This document shows, piece after piece, positions 54,744 through 61,389 of a stretch of DNA of 64,000 nt. The notes under the pieces were generated by a model. It was given only the letters and a program-made list of their open reading frames with translations, ran no database searches and was not told where the DNA came from. Both the position numbers and the translations under genes were made by a program. Source of the DNA: Sphaerochaeta sp. (GTDB taxonomy: Bacteria > Spirochaetota > Spirochaetia > Sphaerochaetales > Sphaerochaetaceae); NCBI GenBank assembly GCA_022482495.1, contig JAKVPA010000001.1, positions 434,001 through 498,000 on the forward strand, given 5' to 3'. Numbering within the stretch: position 1 is the stretch's first letter; each line of letters opens with the position of its first letter.

Positions 54744-55925
54744 TCAATGCTTGTCGTATCCTTTTTCCTTCCAGACATCCCTCAGACGGAGAATCTTCTC
54801 GCCGGCGGCGCGAAGCGTCTCGTCCTTCTTGGCAAAGTGGAAGCGGATCAAATGGTGAACCGGCTCACGGAAGAAACTGGATCCCGGAACAGCGGCGACC
54901 CCTGCTTCCTTGGCCATCCACTCGCAGAAACGGGTATCGTCGGTGGCGTCGAACTCGCTGATGTCCACCATCACGTAGTACGCCCCCTGCGGCTTGGTGT
55001 ACACCAGGTGTGCCTGGTCCAGATAGGACAGAAACAGGTTACGCTTTTCGGTGTACAGGTCACGCAACTCGTCGTAGTACGACCAAGGAAGCTTCAGACC
55101 AGAGACGGCAGCTTCCTGCAGTGGCGCGGCCGCACCGACGGTGAGGAAGTCATGGACTTTCCGCACGGCGGAGATGGCTTCGGCTGGACCGAGGACGTAC
55201 CCAAGACGCCATCCGGTGATGGAATAGGTCTTGGACAGGGAACTGCAGCTCAATGTCCGTTCGGCCATCCCGGGAAGGGAAGCGAAGTACACATGCTCAC
55301 CGGGCTGGTAGACGATGTGTTCGTACACCTCGTCGGTGATCACCCAGGTATCGTACTTCTTGGCCAGCGTTGCGATGATCTCAAGCTCCGAACGGGTGAA
55401 CACCTTGCCGGTGGGGTTGCCGGGATTACAGAGGATCAAGGCCTTGGGGTGCTGGCGGAACGCGTCTTCCAGCACCTCGGGATCAAAGCTGAAATCCGGT
55501 GGGGTGAGCGGCACGTAGATCGGATCGGCTCCGCTGAGGATGGCGTCCGCCCCGTAGTTCTCGTAGAAAGGGGAGAAGACGATCACCTTGTCTCCGGGAT
55601 CAACGACGGACAGGACGGAAGCCATCATCGCTTCGGTGGAACCGCAGGTGACGGCGATCTGGGTGGCCGGGTCGATGTCGATGCCCATGAAGTGCTTCTG
55701 CTTCGCCGCCAAGGCAATGCGGAAGTTCTCCGCGCCCCAGGTGATGGCGTACTGGTGGGGGCCGGCATAGGCGGCCTTGGCCAACGCTTCCTTCAATTGG
55801 TCGGGAGGATCAAAATCGGGATATCCTTGGGAGAGGTTGATGCTCCCCCATTGATTGGCGACACGGGTCATCCGGCGGATGACCGATTCGGTGAATCCTT
55901 TGGTTTTCTTACTGGTACCTGGCAT
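54744..55925 (-). CDS. PLP-dependent aminotransferase, methionine/aromatic type (YbdL-like)
   Basis: 393 residues, class I fold. INLSQGYPDFDPPDQL, CGSTEAMMASVLSVVDPGDKVI, LCNPGNPTGKVFT, VITDEVYEHIVY, the PLP-Lys in SLSKTYSITGWRLGYVLGP and HHLIRFHFAKKDETL resemble E. coli YbdL (methionine aminotransferase) and kynurenine/glutamine transaminase K. In an operon with methionine uptake genes, conversion of methionine to 4-methylthio-2-oxobutanoate is the natural guess. The ATG at 55925 follows GGAGG and starts next to the previous stop. Confidence 0.87.
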   Translation of the reverse strand: MPGTSKKTKGFTESVIRRMTRVANQWGSINLSQGYPDFDPPDQLKEALAKAAYAGPHQYAITWGAENFRIALAAKQKHFMGIDIDPATQIAVTCGSTEAMMASVLSVVDPGDKVIVFSPFYENYGADAILSGADPIYVPLTPPDFSFDPEVLEDAFRQHPKALILCNPGNPTGKVFTRSELEIIATLAKKYDTWVITDEVYEHIVYQPGEHVYFASLPGMAERTLSCSSLSKTYSITGWRLGYVLGPAEAISAVRKVHDFLTVGAAAPLQEAAVSGLKLPWSYYDELRDLYTEKRNLFLSYLDQAHLVYTKPQGAYYVMVDISEFDATDDTRFCEWMAKEAGVAAVPGSSFFREPVHHLIRFHFAKKDETLRAAGEKILRLRDVWKEKGYDKH

Positions 55926-55926
55926 C

Positions 55927-57009
55927 TCACGCCTCCTTGGTGGAGAGGGACTCCACCTTCGCGATGGCATCCTTTACCATCTTCGCGTCCACCGGGAACG
56001 GAAGCAGATGCATCGATTCGTGGGGAGCCAGAGAAGCCGCCACCACCTTGTCAATTTTCGCTTCGTCCGTCGGATCCACCCCAAGGTCCCGGAACGAAGT
56101 GGGAAGCCCCATCGTCAGGAACTTCTTGCGGAGCTTGATCAGTTCGTCTTCATCGTTCATCAGCACCGCCTGGACCAGAACGCCGTAAGCGACCTTCAGG
56201 CCATGCAGCTTGTCATGGGTTTCCGGCAGGACCGACATACCGTTGTGCAGCGCGTGGGCGGCGGCGACCCGGGTGTACTTCTCCCCCAGTCCTCCGACCA
56301 GTCCGCCGCCGGCGATGACGGCGTCAACGATCTTGATGAACACCGGATCCAGCTTGCCATCCTTCTGCGCTTTGAAGGCGGCGGGGCCTTCCTCAAGGAG
56401 CACCTCGACGATCCGCTTGGCCGTCAGCACGCCCAGCTCTGCGGTAAGGGGAAGAATGGGTCTTCCTTCGGAGAGGATCCGCGCTTCGTACCACTTGGCG
56501 ATGGTGTCGGCCACCCCAGCCTGCAGATAGACGGACGGTGCGTCCAGGATGATCTGGGGATCGACCAGGACGAGGAAAGCACCATGGGGAAACAATTCGT
56601 ACCCAAGCGCCTTGCCTTGGGGGGTGTACCAGACGGACAGCGGAGTCCATCCCGCGCAGGTCGCCGCGATGGTCGGAATGGAGACGAACGGCTTGCCGGA
56701 TGCGATGGACAACGCTTTGGCCGTGTCCAGCACCGTACCGCCGCCGGTACCGATGACCAGGTCAGCGGCTTTGGCCCGGGCTGTCAGGGCATCCACCGTC
56801 TCGTGGGTGCAGTGCCCTTCCAGAAGGTATCCGTCGGACACCTCCTTGGGGAGATACGGGCCCACCGCCTCTCCTGAACGCTTCCCATGGATCCACAGGG
56901 CGCGGGAGAGTTGTTCCTTGCTGAAGAAGTCATACAGATGATTGATGGCGCCGGCGTGGCAGTAGTAGTTGTCCGGGCCGGGTTGAATGCGAAGTACAGG
57001 ATATTCCAT
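55927..57009 (-). CDS. Iron-containing alcohol dehydrogenase family, HcxA/YbdH-like 2-oxoacid reductase
   Basis: 360 residues of the glycerol dehydrogenase/Fe-ADH superfamily. Nucleotide-binding VIGTGGGTVLDTAKALSIASGKPFVSIPTIAATCAG; metal ligands in ADTIAKWYE and in the His of VAAAHALHNG and HGLKVAYGV. The order and the NAD-binding GTGGGTVLD block resemble E. coli YbdH (HcxA), which reduces short 2-oxoacids and is encoded beside ybdL. Here too it sits beside the YbdL-like gene. Glycerol-1-phosphate dehydrogenase is an alternative. Confidence 0.82.
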   Translation of the reverse strand: MEYPVLRIQPGPDNYYCHAGAINHLYDFFSKEQLSRALWIHGKRSGEAVGPYLPKEVSDGYLLEGHCTHETVDALTARAKAADLVIGTGGGTVLDTAKALSIASGKPFVSIPTIAATCAGWTPLSVWYTPQGKALGYELFPHGAFLVLVDPQIILDAPSVYLQAGVADTIAKWYEARILSEGRPILPLTAELGVLTAKRIVEVLLEEGPAAFKAQKDGKLDPVFIKIVDAVIAGGGLVGGLGEKYTRVAAAHALHNGMSVLPETHDKLHGLKVAYGVLVQAVLMNDEDELIKLRKKFLTMGLPTSFRDLGVDPTDEAKIDKVVAASLAPHESMHLLPFPVDAKMVKDAIAKVESLSTKEA

Positions 57010-57068: not shown

Positions 57069-57728
57069 TCAACGGGTGAAGATCCGCGCCACGCGGTCCC
57101 CGATGAGCTGGGCCAGTTGCACGACGATGACAAGCAGCACCACGGTGACCACCATCACGCCGGTCTCATAGCGGTAGTATCCGAACTGGATGGCCAGGTC
57201 CCCGATGCCGCCGCCACCGACGATGCCCGCCATGGCGGAGTAGCCGATCAGGCTGATGAACGTCACCGTGATGGCACGTACCAAACCGGGTCGGGCTTCC
57301 ACGAACAGGACGTCACGGACGATCAACGGGAGCGGGGCTCCGGTGACGACGGAGGATTCGATGACCCCTTTGTCAATCTCGGAGAACGCGCCTTCCACCA
57401 GACGAGCCAAAAACGCCGTGGAAGAGAACGTCAACGGAACCGTCGCGGCGATTGGTCCGATCGTCGTCCCGGTGATCCACCGGGTCAGAGGGATCAATAC
57501 AACGAGGAGGATGACGAACGGAACGGAGCGGATCACATTGACCACCGCTCCGGCGATGGCGTTTGCCGTCTTGTTCGGCGTGAGGAGCGGATGCTCCGTC
57601 AGGTACAACAACAGTCCAAGGGCTGTACCGAAGATGAGGGAGAAAAGCATGGAGAGAAGCACCATCTCAAAGGTTTCCCACGTCGCTTTCCCCAGGTACT
57701 GTTCCAGAATTTCCCATGTCTGTTCCAT
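57069..57728 (-). CDS. metI: Methionine ABC transporter permease
   Basis: 219 residues with five membrane segments. TWETFEMVLLSMLFSLIFGTALGLLLYLT, NVIRSVPFVILLVVLIPLTRWITGTTIG and SLIGYSAMAGIVGGGGIGDLAIQFGYYRYE are nearly diagnostic for MetI. The ATG at 57728 starts one base after the metN stop. Confidence 0.95.
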   Translation of the reverse strand: MEQTWEILEQYLGKATWETFEMVLLSMLFSLIFGTALGLLLYLTEHPLLTPNKTANAIAGAVVNVIRSVPFVILLVVLIPLTRWITGTTIGPIAATVPLTFSSTAFLARLVEGAFSEIDKGVIESSVVTGAPLPLIVRDVLFVEARPGLVRAITVTFISLIGYSAMAGIVGGGGIGDLAIQFGYYRYETGVMVVTVVLLVIVVQLAQLIGDRVARIFTR

Positions 57729-57729
57729 A

Positions 57730-58779
57730 TCAATCCGCCTCCTTGGCGGACACACGCTGTACGGAAGAAGCATGCTCCTCCAAATACCGCAGCGCGTCGG
57801 CCCTGGCCTGCTCCGATCCTTTCAGGGAGACGAGGAGCACACCGTACGGCTTGCCGGTGATGTACTCGATCTTCCCATGGAGGATGGACAGGGTGATGTC
57901 GAATGATTTGACCACGTCGCTGATGATCGCCTGATAGGCGTTCTCGCCGCGGTAGGTCAGTTTGACCAGCTGTTCGTCCCCTGCAAGGGGTGGCAGCACC
58001 GGTACGTCGATGTCCGCAACTTTGGAGACCAACCGCCGCACCGTTTCATGCTGCGGAGCGGTGAAGATCGTGTAGGTGTCCCCTGTTTCGATCACCGAGC
58101 CGTGGTCCATCACGGCGACGCGGTCGAACAGCCGTTCGGCCACTTCCAGCTGGTGGGTGATGAACACGATGGTCAGGTGCATCTTCCGGTTGATCTCCCG
58201 GAGGATGGAGACGATCTCTTCGGTCGTTTCGGCGTCCAGCGCGCTGGTCGCCTCGTCACAGAGGAGAATCTCCGGATTGTTTGCCAGGGCACGGGCGATG
58301 GCCACCCGCTGTTTCTGTCCACCGGACAGCTGGGACGGATACGCTTTTTCCTTGTCCCCCAACCCGACCAGCTGGAGCAGTTCCTTCACCCGGCCGGGGA
58401 TTTCGGCTTTCTTCCAGCCACCGGCCTTCAGGTTGAACGCGACGTTCTCCCCGACGGTCGAGCCACCGATCAGATTGAAGTGCTGGAAGATCATTCCCAT
58501 CCGTTTGCGTTCTTCGGCCAACGCCGTTCCGCTGTAGGAGGTGATGTCCTGGCCATCAATGATCACATTGCCGGAGGTGGGGCGCTGCAGCAGGTTGATC
58601 ACCCGCACCAGCGTGCTCTTGCCCGCCCCGCTCTGGCCTACGATTCCAAAAATCTCCCCCTTCTCCACCGTCAGGCTGACGTGAGAGACAGCGTGAAGCT
58701 CCTTTCCCCCGTCAAGAGGAAAGGAGACGCTGATGTCACGCAACTCGATGATGGGGATGTGCCGCATTCCTGCTTCCAT
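57730..58779 (-). CDS. metN: Methionine ABC transporter ATPase with C-terminal NIL sensor domain
   Basis: 349 residues. Walker A GIVGQSGAGKSTLVRVINLL, Q-loop FQHFNLI, signature [23 protein letters not shown], Walker B CDEATSALDAETT and the switch His FITHQLE. Residues 265-349 form the NIL domain, which binds methionine and inhibits transport when the amino acid is plentiful. It follows the metQ stop by three bases. Confidence 0.96.
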   Translation of the reverse strand: MEAGMRHIPIIELRDISVSFPLDGGKELHAVSHVSLTVEKGEIFGIVGQSGAGKSTLVRVINLLQRPTSGNVIIDGQDITSYSGTALAEERKRMGMIFQHFNLIGGSTVGENVAFNLKAGGWKKAEIPGRVKELLQLVGLGDKEKAYPSQLSGGQKQRVAIARALANNPEILLCDEATSALDAETTEEIVSILREINRKMHLTIVFITHQLEVAERLFDRVAVMDHGSVIETGDTYTIFTAPQHETVRRLVSKVADIDVPVLPPLAGDEQLVKLTYRGENAYQAIISDVVKSFDITLSILHGKIEYITGKPYGVLLVSLKGSEQARADALRYLEEHASSVQRVSAKEAD

Positions 58780-58782
58780 CGC

Positions 58783-59646
58783 TTATTTGCCCTCGCCGTA
58801 CTTGTCAACCCACCACTGCGGCCGGTCGAACGAGTTGAAGATACTGCCCGGTTTGGTGATGGCGTTGTAGAAGTCCTCCGACTCAACGGCGGCCTTCAGG
58901 TCACGTCCCAGCTGGGAATCCACATCCGGGGTCCGGACGGCGACGACGTTCTTGTACCCTTCGGCAAGCTTTTCGATGGCCAGTGCCTTGGTGAAATCAA
59001 GACCGGCGGCGATGGCGTAGTTGCCCGGCACGATGCCGATGGCCACGCTGTCCAAGCTCCGGGAGATCTGGGCGCCGTCAAGCGTCTGGAACTTCAGGTT
59101 CTTCGGGTTGGAGGCGATGTCGGAGAGGGACACCTTGGTGGGATCAATGCCGTCCTTCAGCGTGATGACGCCGAAGCGGGCAAGGATGCCAAGGCTGCGG
59201 GCCAGGTTGGTCACGTCACTGGCGATGGCCACCTGGTCACCGGTCTTCAGCTGGTCCAACGAGGTGTAGACGTGGCTGAATACGCCGGCACCGGCCGTCG
59301 GAACGATGATCACCGCGGCGAGGTCCAGGTTGTTCGCCTTGGAGAACGCGTTCAGGTAGACGGTGTGCTGCATCAAGTTCGCCTCGATCTCCCCGTTGTT
59401 CAACGCCTGGTCCGGCTGTACCCAGTCGGAGAACTGGACGACGGAGACGGTGTAGCCCTGTTTCTCCAGGTACGGCGCGATGGCCTGTTTGACCATGTCT
59501 CCATAGGGCCCGGGGCTGACCCCGATGCGGATCTGTTTCGTGGTGGTCGGCGAGGATGTTTCCTTCGCCCCGTTAGCGAACAGCGCGGCGGATGCCAGCA
59601 CTGCCGTGATGAGAAGTGTTACAAGAACTTTTTTTGTGGAACGCAT
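58783..59646 (-). CDS. metQ: Methionine ABC transporter substrate-binding protein
   Basis: 287 residues, NlpA family. Signal peptide MRSTKKVLVTLLITAVLASAALFA followed by NGAKETSS; then KQIRIGVSPGPYGDMVKQAIAPYLEKQGY, DWVQPDQALNNGEIEANLMQHTVYL and VPTAGAGVFSHVYTSLDQLKTG. No lipobox Cys is visible at the usual place, so it may be a soluble periplasmic protein. GGGAGC lies before the ATG at 59646. First structural gene behind a Met-rich leader peptide. Confidence 0.95.
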   Translation of the reverse strand: MRSTKKVLVTLLITAVLASAALFANGAKETSSPTTTKQIRIGVSPGPYGDMVKQAIAPYLEKQGYTVSVVQFSDWVQPDQALNNGEIEANLMQHTVYLNAFSKANNLDLAAVIIVPTAGAGVFSHVYTSLDQLKTGDQVAIASDVTNLARSLGILARFGVITLKDGIDPTKVSLSDIASNPKNLKFQTLDGAQISRSLDSVAIGIVPGNYAIAAGLDFTKALAIEKLAEGYKNVVAVRTPDVDSQLGRDLKAAVESEDFYNAITKPGSIFNSFDRPQWWVDKYGEGK

Positions 59647-59683
59647 ATATTGCTCCCTTGCTTGATATCGTTGTCGTTTCCTG

Positions 59684-59761
59684 CCGTAGCCGGATACTCC
59701 GGAAAACATACGGTTGCCTCGAACCTGATGAATCTATGGATGTCGTGTGGATATAAGTATG
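59684..59761 (-). promoter_or_regulatory. Alternative hairpins between leader peptide and metQ
   Basis: On the minus strand CATAC (plus 59757-59761) can pair with GTATG (plus 59707-59711), while CCGTA (59709-59713), overlapping the latter, can pair with TACGG (59684-59688) around an inner stem CCGGA/TCCGG (59698-59702 and 59690-59694). The two arrangements exclude each other, as in attenuators. No U-run follows. Confidence 0.4.
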
Positions 59762-59771
59762 TGTGCGCTTT

Positions 59772-59843
59772 TCAGCGCATCATCATGTGGGAGCGCATCA
59801 GGAACGAGGACTCAGCATGTGACAGGGTAATTGGTCTCAACAT
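59772..59843 (-). CDS. Met-rich leader peptide of the methionine operon
   Basis: 23 codons starting with ATG at 59843, five bases after a very good AAGGAGG site, and ending in SHMMMR and TGA. Five of 23 residues are Met, three of them consecutive next to the stop. A TGCGCT-GAAA-AGCGCA hairpin spans the last codons and the stop. The position, 125 bases before metQ on the same transcript, makes ribosome stalling on Met codons a plausible sensor of methionine or charged Met-tRNA. It could also be a chance frame, but the strong ribosome site speaks against that. Confidence 0.6.
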   Translation of the reverse strand: MLRPITLSHAESSFLMRSHMMMR

Positions 59844-59906
59844 GTGCTCCTCCTTCCAGACGGTGTCTGATTTGTTGTCCCTAACGTTGCCTTTCCGAAG
59901 AAAAAA

Positions 59907-59912
59907 TGTCAA
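59907..59912 (-). promoter_or_regulatory. -35 box of the methionine operon promoter
   Basis: A perfect TTGACA on the minus strand after the trpB-like terminator. A good -10 is not obvious at the usual spacing (CAACGT/ACGTTA region). The hairpin CAGAC-ACC-GTCTG lies between it and the leader-peptide ribosome site. Confidence 0.4.
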
Positions 59913-60012: not shown

Positions 60013-61389
60013 TTATTTGTCACACTTGGGAAGATACTGCAGCGCGTCGGCGATGTCCTTGTCCGTCGGGATGGAGTCGGTCATCGTGCCGTCGTTGTAG
60101 CTCTTGTAGGCGGAGAGGTCGAAGTACCCGGTACCGGTCAGGCCGAACAGGATGTCCTTGCTCTCACCGGTTTCCTTGCACTTCATCGCTTCGTCGATGG
60201 CCACCTTGATGGCATGGCTGCTCTCCGGCGCCGGCAGAATCCCTTCGGTACGGCAGAACAGCTCGGCCGCCTCGAAGACGGAGGTCTGCTCCACCGCCCT
60301 GGCTTCCAGATACCCGTCGTGGTACAGCTGGGAGAGGATCGGGGACATGCCATGGAAGCGAAGGCCACCGGCGTGGTTGGGGGACGGGATGAACTGCGAG
60401 CCGATGGTGTACATCTTTGCCAGCGGGCACACCTCACCGGTATCGCAGAAATCGTAGGCGAACTTGCCGCGGGTGAAACTCGGGCAGGAAGCGGGCTCGA
60501 CGGCGATGAACCGGTAGTCCTTCTCCCCACGGAGCTTCTCTCCCATGAACGGGGCGATCAAGCCACCCAGGTTGGAACCGCCGCCGGCGCATCCGATGAT
60601 GATGTCCGGGGTGACGTTGTACTTGTCCAGCGCCGCCTTGGCTTCCAATCCGATGACCGACTGGTGGAGCAGCACTTGGTTGAGCACGCTGCCCAGCACG
60701 TAACGGTACCCCTCGTGGGTGGTGGCGTATTCCACCGCCTCGCTGATGGCGCATCCCAAACTGCCGTTGGTGCCGGGGTGGGCCTTCAGAATGGCACGCC
60801 CGACGTTGGTGGTGTCCGACGGCGACGGAGTGACCGTGGCGCCGTAGGTGCGCATCACTTCCTTGCGTGCTGGTTTCTGCTCGTAGGAGATCTTCACCAT
60901 GTACACCTTCAGGTCAAGGCCGAAGTAGGCGCAGCTCATGGAAAGCGCCGTGCCCCACTGCCCCGCTCCGGTTTCCGTCGTCACCCCTTTCAGACCCTGG
61001 GCCTTGGCGTAGTACGCCTGGGCGATGGCCGAATTGAGTTTGTGGCTGCCACTGGTGTTGTTTCCCTCGAACTTGTAGTAGATGTGCGCAGGAGTGTCCA
61101 GTTTTTTCTCCAGACAGTAGGCACGCACCACCGGGGACGGCCGGTACATGTGGTAGAACTCACGGATCTCATCAGGAATGGGGATGCGCCGGGTATCGTT
61201 GTCAAGCTCCTGCTCCACCAGTTCCTTGCAGAACACGTGATCAAGTTCAGTTGCGGTCATCGGCTGGAGGGTTCCCGGATTGAGCAGCGGCGCCGGTTTG
61301 TTCTTCATGTCGGCGCGAATGTTGTACCAGAAATCGGGTATCTCATTCTCCGAAAGGTAGATTTTGTAGGGAATGGTGTGCGTTGTCAT
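60013..61389 (-). CDS. TrpB2-type tryptophan synthase beta-like enzyme
   Basis: 458-residue PLP enzyme joining indole (or related nucleophile) with serine. The longer N-terminus (YLSENEIPDFWYNIRADM) and the block RPSPVVRAYCLEKKL place it in the TrpB2 group rather than TrpB1. PLP-Lys lies in EGNNTSGSHKLNSAIAQ, then TTETGAGQWGTALS, and the phosphate-binding CAGGGSNLGG. No trpA or other trp gene is near, so it likely salvages indole or acts as a serine deaminase. GGAG lies before the ATG. Confidence 0.93.
   Translation of the reverse strand: MTTHTIPYKIYLSENEIPDFWYNIRADMKNKPAPLLNPGTLQPMTATELDHVFCKELVEQELDNDTRRIPIPDEIREFYHMYRPSPVVRAYCLEKKLDTPAHIYYKFEGNNTSGSHKLNSAIAQAYYAKAQGLKGVTTETGAGQWGTALSMSCAYFGLDLKVYMVKISYEQKPARKEVMRTYGATVTPSPSDTTNVGRAILKAHPGTNGSLGCAISEAVEYATTHEGYRYVLGSVLNQVLLHQSVIGLEAKAALDKYNVTPDIIIGCAGGGSNLGGLIAPFMGEKLRGEKDYRFIAVEPASCPSFTRGKFAYDFCDTGEVCPLAKMYTIGSQFIPSPNHAGGLRFHGMSPILSQLYHDGYLEARAVEQTSVFEAAELFCRTEGILPAPESSHAIKVAIDEAMKCKETGESKDILFGLTGTGYFDLSAYKSYNDGTMTDSIPTDKDIADALQYLPKCDK

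Follow-up and report, generated by a model that had tools for sequence, protein, structure and literature searches.

The window, by which we mean the whole stretch of 64,000 nucleotides that was analysed, carries on its minus strand a metQ-metN-metI operon preceded by a short leader (Table 1). The names metQ, metN and metI rest on NCBIfam scores below the curated cut-offs, but they are backed by PF03180, the NIL domain and the gene order. Further upstream on the same strand lies a trpB-like gene, whose end is at 60013; a strong terminator hairpin (59981-59958) comes after it. The TTGACA hexamer of Table 1 lies downstream of that terminator, and a TTGACA is similarly placed before the leaders of the type ending in MMMR at L122-L125. 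The alcohol dehydrogenase gene and the methionine-aminotransferase-like gene follow metQNI in the window as a pair (54744-57009), and the same pair is found in a divergent orientation beside metQ in another genome (G021, L234); a role of this pair in methionine keto-acid salvage is possible.

The leader open reading frame (ORF) runs from an ATG at 59843 to a TGA at 59774-59772 and has the Shine-Dalgarno (SD) sequence GGAAGGAGGAG just 5' of its start. The initial annotation of this DNA had described a 23-codon frame with an excellent ribosome site upstream of metQ, three Met codons in succession near its stop, and a hairpin over the stop. All three features are indeed present, with a single further sense codon between the ATG triplet and the stop codon.

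Table 1. Features of the leader and of the metQ operon in the window (positions are those of the window).
Feature	Position	Strand	Basis
Probable -35 box (TTGACA) of the leader-metQ operon's own promoter	59907..59912	-	Sequence; window without a clear -10
Leader Shine-Dalgarno region, GGAAGGAGGA, 5' strand of P1	59848..59857	-	Pairing probability 0.86-1.0 except one mismatch; covariation test
Leader ORF, 23 codons, MLRPITLSHAESSFLMRSHMMMR followed by stop	59772..59843	-	Sequence; homologous frames in relatives; covariance-model match G000:C1:493748-493861
3' strand of P1, UCCUCGUUCC, inside the leader ORF	59801..59810	-	Pairing probability; covariation
Three consecutive Met codons (ATG), proposed ribosome stall site	59778..59786	-	Sequence
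P2 hairpin, GCGCU-GAAA-AGCGC, from the G of the last Met codon, contains the stop codon	59765..59778	-	Pairing probability about 1
Unstructured region low in G, 3' of the stop codon, includes CCACACGACAUCC (59750-59738); might be contacted by Rho or a protein (function inferred)	59735..59764	-	
metQ, NlpA/MetQ family methionine-binding lipoprotein, first regulated gene (regulation inferred)	58783..59646	-	PF03180, E 1.5e-64; closest NCBIfam model MetQ, below cut-off
metN, ABC ATPase with NIL domain	57730..58764	-	Closest model TIGR02314 ABC_MetN, below cut-off
metI, permease	57069..57725	-	Closest model MetI, PRK10782, below cut-off
Iron-containing alcohol dehydrogenase, likely same operon	55927..57009	-	PF00465; ORF position
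Class I/II aminotransferase, methionine-aminotransferase-like, likely same operon	54744..55925	-	PF00155; NCBIfam subfamily 'methionine aminotransferase', E 5e-103, below cut-off

Conservation of the Leader

The metQ homologues of the same GTDB family were collected together with their upstream DNA. Short Met-rich frames preceded by an SD are found upstream of metQ in these relatives, mostly at a distance of about 80-160 nt, which means that dozens of species have this leader in an equivalent position; MRDISNYIAHCNSSVSMMCYMMMR, MTSFTYSFSMSFFMMMP, MTVYRTSASTMMMSSMMMPVRA and MNVVSRQMCCMMSLMMPARA, each followed by a stop, are examples out of many more. The peptides are 17-27 amino acids long and methionine makes up 25% of their internal residues (58 leader peptides). 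They end in MMMR, MMMP or MMPxRA directly before the stop, and the distance from the last Met to the stop is five codons in 47 of the 58 peptides, two in 8 and six in 3. The N-terminal half of the peptide is not conserved, whereas the C-terminal MPxRA is strongly so. Judged by this comparison of sequences, the leader is far above chance, and its conservation across the relatives rules out a chance ORF.

A DNA pattern that consisted only of the AUG run and the P2 hairpin was also scanned over 84,980 species genomes, where at least 80 stretches matched. Spirochaetes account for 59 of the matches listed, and among these 57 sites have an in-frame leader preceded by an SD, with metQ following in all 55 spirochaete sites where the next gene could be read. 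The 21 non-spirochaete matches among those listed have neither such a leader nor metQ. The remaining two spirochaete sites (L136 and L171) keep the AUG run and P2 and lack P1, the helix described below. At these two sites (around 1756-1779 in L136 and around 3042-3065 in L171) no SD precedes the leader ATG, a -10-like sequence is at most about 10 nt away from it, and the mRNAs are possibly leaderless.

Distribution and Target Genes

Of the 139 genomes of the GTDB family, 80 have the leader according to a covariance model (R1), which was used for searches of the family and of the phylum; these genomes belong to 8 of the family's 22 genera. In a sample of 393 genomes of the phylum, the model finds the leader only within this same family. 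Two weak matches of the model (G021:C37:8402-8515 and G105:C168:2523-2623, both on the minus strand) have no recognisable leader ORF and are probable false positives; the latter lies near a feoA/feoB-like gene. A tblastn search of plasmids with the 23-amino-acid peptide, which is a weak test, gave no match.

The leader stands nearly always before metQ; the exceptions are few and have metNIQ, metY, metA or a peptide importer downstream. The genome of the window has two copies, both before metQ (the one in the window and one at G000:C5, locus L043). In species of the same genus, a leader of the same type precedes metN-metI-metQ (L238), and a Met-rich leader precedes an oligopeptide-type ABC importer at two loci (L232 and L233, in G001:C29 and G002:C45), which suggests that the response to methionine includes the uptake of peptides, if the link of this importer to methionine, which is assumed here, holds. 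Both metY (O-acetylhomoserine sulfhydrylase, L236) and metA (homoserine acyltransferase, L237) are preceded by the leader in one genome only. With the link of the peptide importer assumed, these different target genes share the supply of methionine, and this forms the strongest independent hint to the signal. Many family members lack the leader, including the sampled genomes of genus g3, in which metNIQ has a promoter and no leader. No leader was found within roughly 200 nt upstream of metY in the metYA operons that were checked (genus g16 and others), nor upstream of eight further metA genes.

Two observations on the metQ genes of the family may be added. In many cases, a metNIQ operon comes immediately after an rRNA operon (5S/23S matches; L043, L098, L097, L107, L110 and others). 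Some genomes (L141, L145, L155, L182, L185 and L239) encode a second MetQ-like protein of roughly 300 amino acids (KIGVPDDATNQARA) with a Met-rich leader of its own; at L239 this gene is followed by an M20-type amidohydrolase-like gene, which was named by eye.

Base Pairing in the Leader RNA

Two helices are conserved in the leader RNA. The first (P1), which had been missed in the initial annotation, pairs the leader's own SD with a segment immediately 5' of the Met codons; the variable body of the ORF forms the loop of this helix. The partner sequences of P1 differ among the relatives (GGAGGACAU with AUGUCCUCC in many, GAGAGACAU with AUGUCUCUC, and AGGAGGUAUGC with GCAUGUCUUCU), and they covary: the pairing score is 20.9 for own partners versus 15.6 for swapped partners, and none of 5000 permutations reached the observed mean. 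This permutation test is not corrected for relatedness, a problem that is lessened by a comparison with partners from other clades, in which the own partner scored higher in 41 of 50 leaders. In a MAFFT alignment, two-sided changes occur in seven of the nine P1 pairs, and 83% of the cells of P1 and P2 pair, versus 28-56% when the helices are slid. The region from the SD to the stop folds with a mean z of -2.6, and in the window both helices have pairing probabilities near 1 apart from the one P1 mismatch. The comparison that had been proposed as a check, i.e., whether related leaders keep the frame and the Met codons and have covarying stems, was passed: the related leaders retain the frame and its SD as well as the Met codons, and covariation is seen in P1.

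The second helix (P2) is nearly invariant. It occurs in the relatives as AUGCCC-NNNN-GGGCAU, as AUGCGCUAGCGCGCAU or in AUGCGC forms, starts at the last Met codon and has a variable loop. The conserved PxRA or MPxRA of the peptide is what the P2 palindrome AUGCCCNNNNGGGCA encodes, and this bears on two readings in which the peptide itself is the active agent. The product of the ORF might be a functional small peptide that acts in trans, with its place before metQ reflecting mere operon membership; the strong conservation of MPxRA would fit this. The palindrome that encodes these residues, the existence of MMMR and MMMP ends and the lack of conservation in the N-terminal half speak against it to such a degree that it can scarcely be maintained. 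The C-terminus might also be an arrest sequence of the nascent peptide, with methionine or SAM itself being sensed instead of codon supply, much as in TnaC or CGS1, and the conserved C-terminal residues, the stop just downstream and the G-poor stretch right after the stop, as in tnaC, point in that direction. Yet the MMPxRA, MMMR and MMMP ends are interchangeable between species, and the residues beyond the Met codons follow the base pairing of P2, which renders direct sensing by the peptide very improbable.

That the RNA of P1 and P2 is itself a ligand- or protein-binding element, for instance a new SAM or methionine riboswitch in which the Met codons are incidental, is also a view for which there is little room. 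Both helices are conserved and P1 covaries, and SAM or methionine as the ligand would fit the target genes. However, the element has just two simple helices with variable loops, it has no match in Rfam, and the frame, its start and the AUG run are kept without SD and P1 at L136 and L171. Moreover, pairing alone does not account for the AUG run, most of which is not part of either helix. A protein could find its site in the motif CACSACAT, which follows the stop in 9 of 50 leaders versus 0.06 expected. This motif lies in a region without structure (z of +0.2 for the 40 nt after the stop), in which G makes up 8% of the nucleotides compared to 15-17% around it (50 leaders) and which is U/A-rich and not strongly C-rich.

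Terminators and Known Regulatory Elements

Two alternative, mutually exclusive pairings before metQ had been proposed from the window. Such pairings can be drawn there (e.g., 59807-59796 with 59730-59719, z of 1.8) but they are not conserved in the relatives: pairing between the Met region and the region after the stop is at the level of shuffled sequences (mean z of 0.03; 50 leaders), and pairing of the leader anti-SD segment with the region after the stop does not differ between own and swapped partners (p = 0.29). No intrinsic terminator with a U-tract was found between leader and metQ in the window, and none is conserved in the relatives; the spacers of L046, L050, L092, L095, L102 and L130 have no mid-spacer hairpin whatever. 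A classical attenuator would have an SD-preceded ORF with codons of the amino acid of the pathway, which is the case here (58 leader peptides; translation is inferred), and a conserved antiterminator, which was rejected as the alternative pairings do not exceed those of shuffled sequences.

Searches for known elements gave no methionine regulator. No Rfam family reaches its gathering score in the region of the leader, and no methionine element of Rfam turned up in the window or at 40 related loci; a relaxed threshold yielded only matches at chance level. SAM-I (RF00162) has no match in the window, the 40 related loci or the genome of the window, and MetJ (PF01340) is absent from that genome. 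The only T-box match (RF00230) in this genome scores 89 bits, with a gathering score of 93, and lies upstream of a thrS-like (threonyl-tRNA synthetase) gene (G000:C13:16864-17098, L242). The earlier statement that no S-box/SAM riboswitch, methionine T-box or MetJ is to be seen at this operon consequently stands. Rho is encoded in the genome of the window.

Discussion

Taken as a whole, the leader is probably a methionine attenuator that works through stalling of the ribosome, an explanation in which the output is an inference and for which there are no expression, ribosome or RNA data. That the Met codons form the sensor seems very likely from the sequence comparison. The initial annotation had already regarded the locus as a leader-peptide sensor of methionine supply, and the kept frame, SD and Met codons, together with targets that are mostly methionine genes, support this, although the regulation itself remains inferred. 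The scheme would start from the translated-looking short leader with its AUG runs, which the comparison places before metQ and, in relatives, before a few other methionine genes. From the codon content and the target genes we infer that a shortage of Met-tRNA would stall the ribosome on the AUG run, where by its position it would cover the 3' strand of P1 together with the 5' strand of P2, holding both open and keeping the leader occupied. With ample methionine the ribosome would read through and leave at the stop inside P2; P1 could then close the leader's own ribosome site to the next ribosome and P2 would refold, so that untranslated, G-poor and unstructured RNA before metQ would be exposed. 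The structures invoked here are conserved, their effect is inferred. In the final step, also inferred, Rho would load on the exposed RNA and end transcription before metQ, whereas an occupied leader would block Rho and allow more methionine uptake on starvation.

Since there is no terminator and no pairing of the metQ SD, and since Rho is encoded, Rho-dependent termination is the most economical output. We propose it only tentatively, as there is no direct evidence for it and there are no data on Rho sites, and it may well turn out not to apply. In particular, it is not obvious how a ribosome stalled ahead of the G-poor stretch would stop Rho, and P1 could act on translation of the leader only, without an effect on metQ. 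The same Met-codon sensor might instead act on translation of metQ or on mRNA stability, with the stalled ribosome protecting the 5' end or keeping the ribosome site of metQ open as in ermC. In a few species (L044, L085, L093 and L096) the metQ SD does pair with part of the leader, and one output need not be common to all operons with the leader. Across 50 leaders, however, the metQ SD has no specific complementarity to the leader anti-SD segment (14.1 with its own versus 14.7 with swapped segments, p = 0.90) or to the region after the stop (p = 0.86), so that sequestration of the metQ SD by the leader, as in ermC, was rejected. A translational or stability output appears rather unlikely, and termination by Rho remains our working proposal.

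Attenuators that rely on a leader peptide with a codon run have been described for other amino acids (trp, his, leu, ilv, thr, phe), while control of methionine genes in bacteria is known via SAM riboswitches, T-boxes and DNA-binding repressors. The spirochaete leader shares with the classical attenuators a short leader preceded by an SD, with a codon run for the amino acid of the regulated genes and a place just upstream of them. It differs from them in that it uses methionine, has no U-tract terminator or conserved antiterminator, and has a conserved helix that closes the leader's own ribosome site. SAM-I (S-box), the methionine T-box and MetJ regulate genes for methionine uptake or synthesis elsewhere; in the genome of the window the first and the last are absent and the sole T-box match is the one before thrS.

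The nearest described cases are the Cys-rich leaders without terminators and the LEU element. Cys-rich leader peptides lie upstream of cys operons in mycobacteria and other actinobacteria, with the codon run near the stop and no obvious terminator, and Rho has been proposed for them (Seliverstov 2005, PMC1262725). No conserved hairpin able to be a terminator was reported for these leaders, and no RNA structures were found upstream of methionine operons in Actinobacteria (PMC1262725). The spirochaete leader has in common with them the codon run near the stop and the lack of an evident terminator, and differs in using Met instead of Cys and in occurring in another phylum. In the LEU element of actinobacterial leuA, the region of the regulatory codons pairs with the SD of the downstream gene (PMC1262725). 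The corresponding spirochaete segment, in contrast, pairs with the leader's own SD, and the metQ SD has no such pairing.

A decision by Rho that depends on ribosome occupancy of a small upstream ORF is known from tnaC of Escherichia coli, which responds to free tryptophan. In the toiL leader of topAI from the same species, Rho termination also depends on occupancy of the leader by ribosomes; this leader responds to ribosome-targeting drugs, and toiL pairs with the ribosome site of topAI (PMC12121999). Neither tnaC nor toiL has a run of Met codons, and Rho has been shown there, whereas for the spirochaete leader it is only inferred.

No methionine leader peptide or attenuator was found described in the open-access literature that was searched, a search that mostly leaves out subscription journals. 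It is reasonably likely that this is the first methionine leader-peptide attenuator, i.e., a codon-run sensor of a small regulon (metQ/metNIQ, metY, metA and a peptide importer) within one spirochaete family, with an unusual layout: the leader's own SD is closed by the segment beside the regulatory codons, and neither a terminator nor an antiterminator takes part. If this is true, methionine would join the amino acids that are sensed by the translating ribosome, and the architecture, a self-closing leader ribosome site without a terminator, would have an output mechanism that is directly testable. Being compact and having a recognisable sequence signature, the leader can also serve as a marker of methionine genes in uncultured gut spirochaetes. 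It would also explain how methionine uptake may be regulated in spirochaetes that have neither SAM-I nor MetJ.
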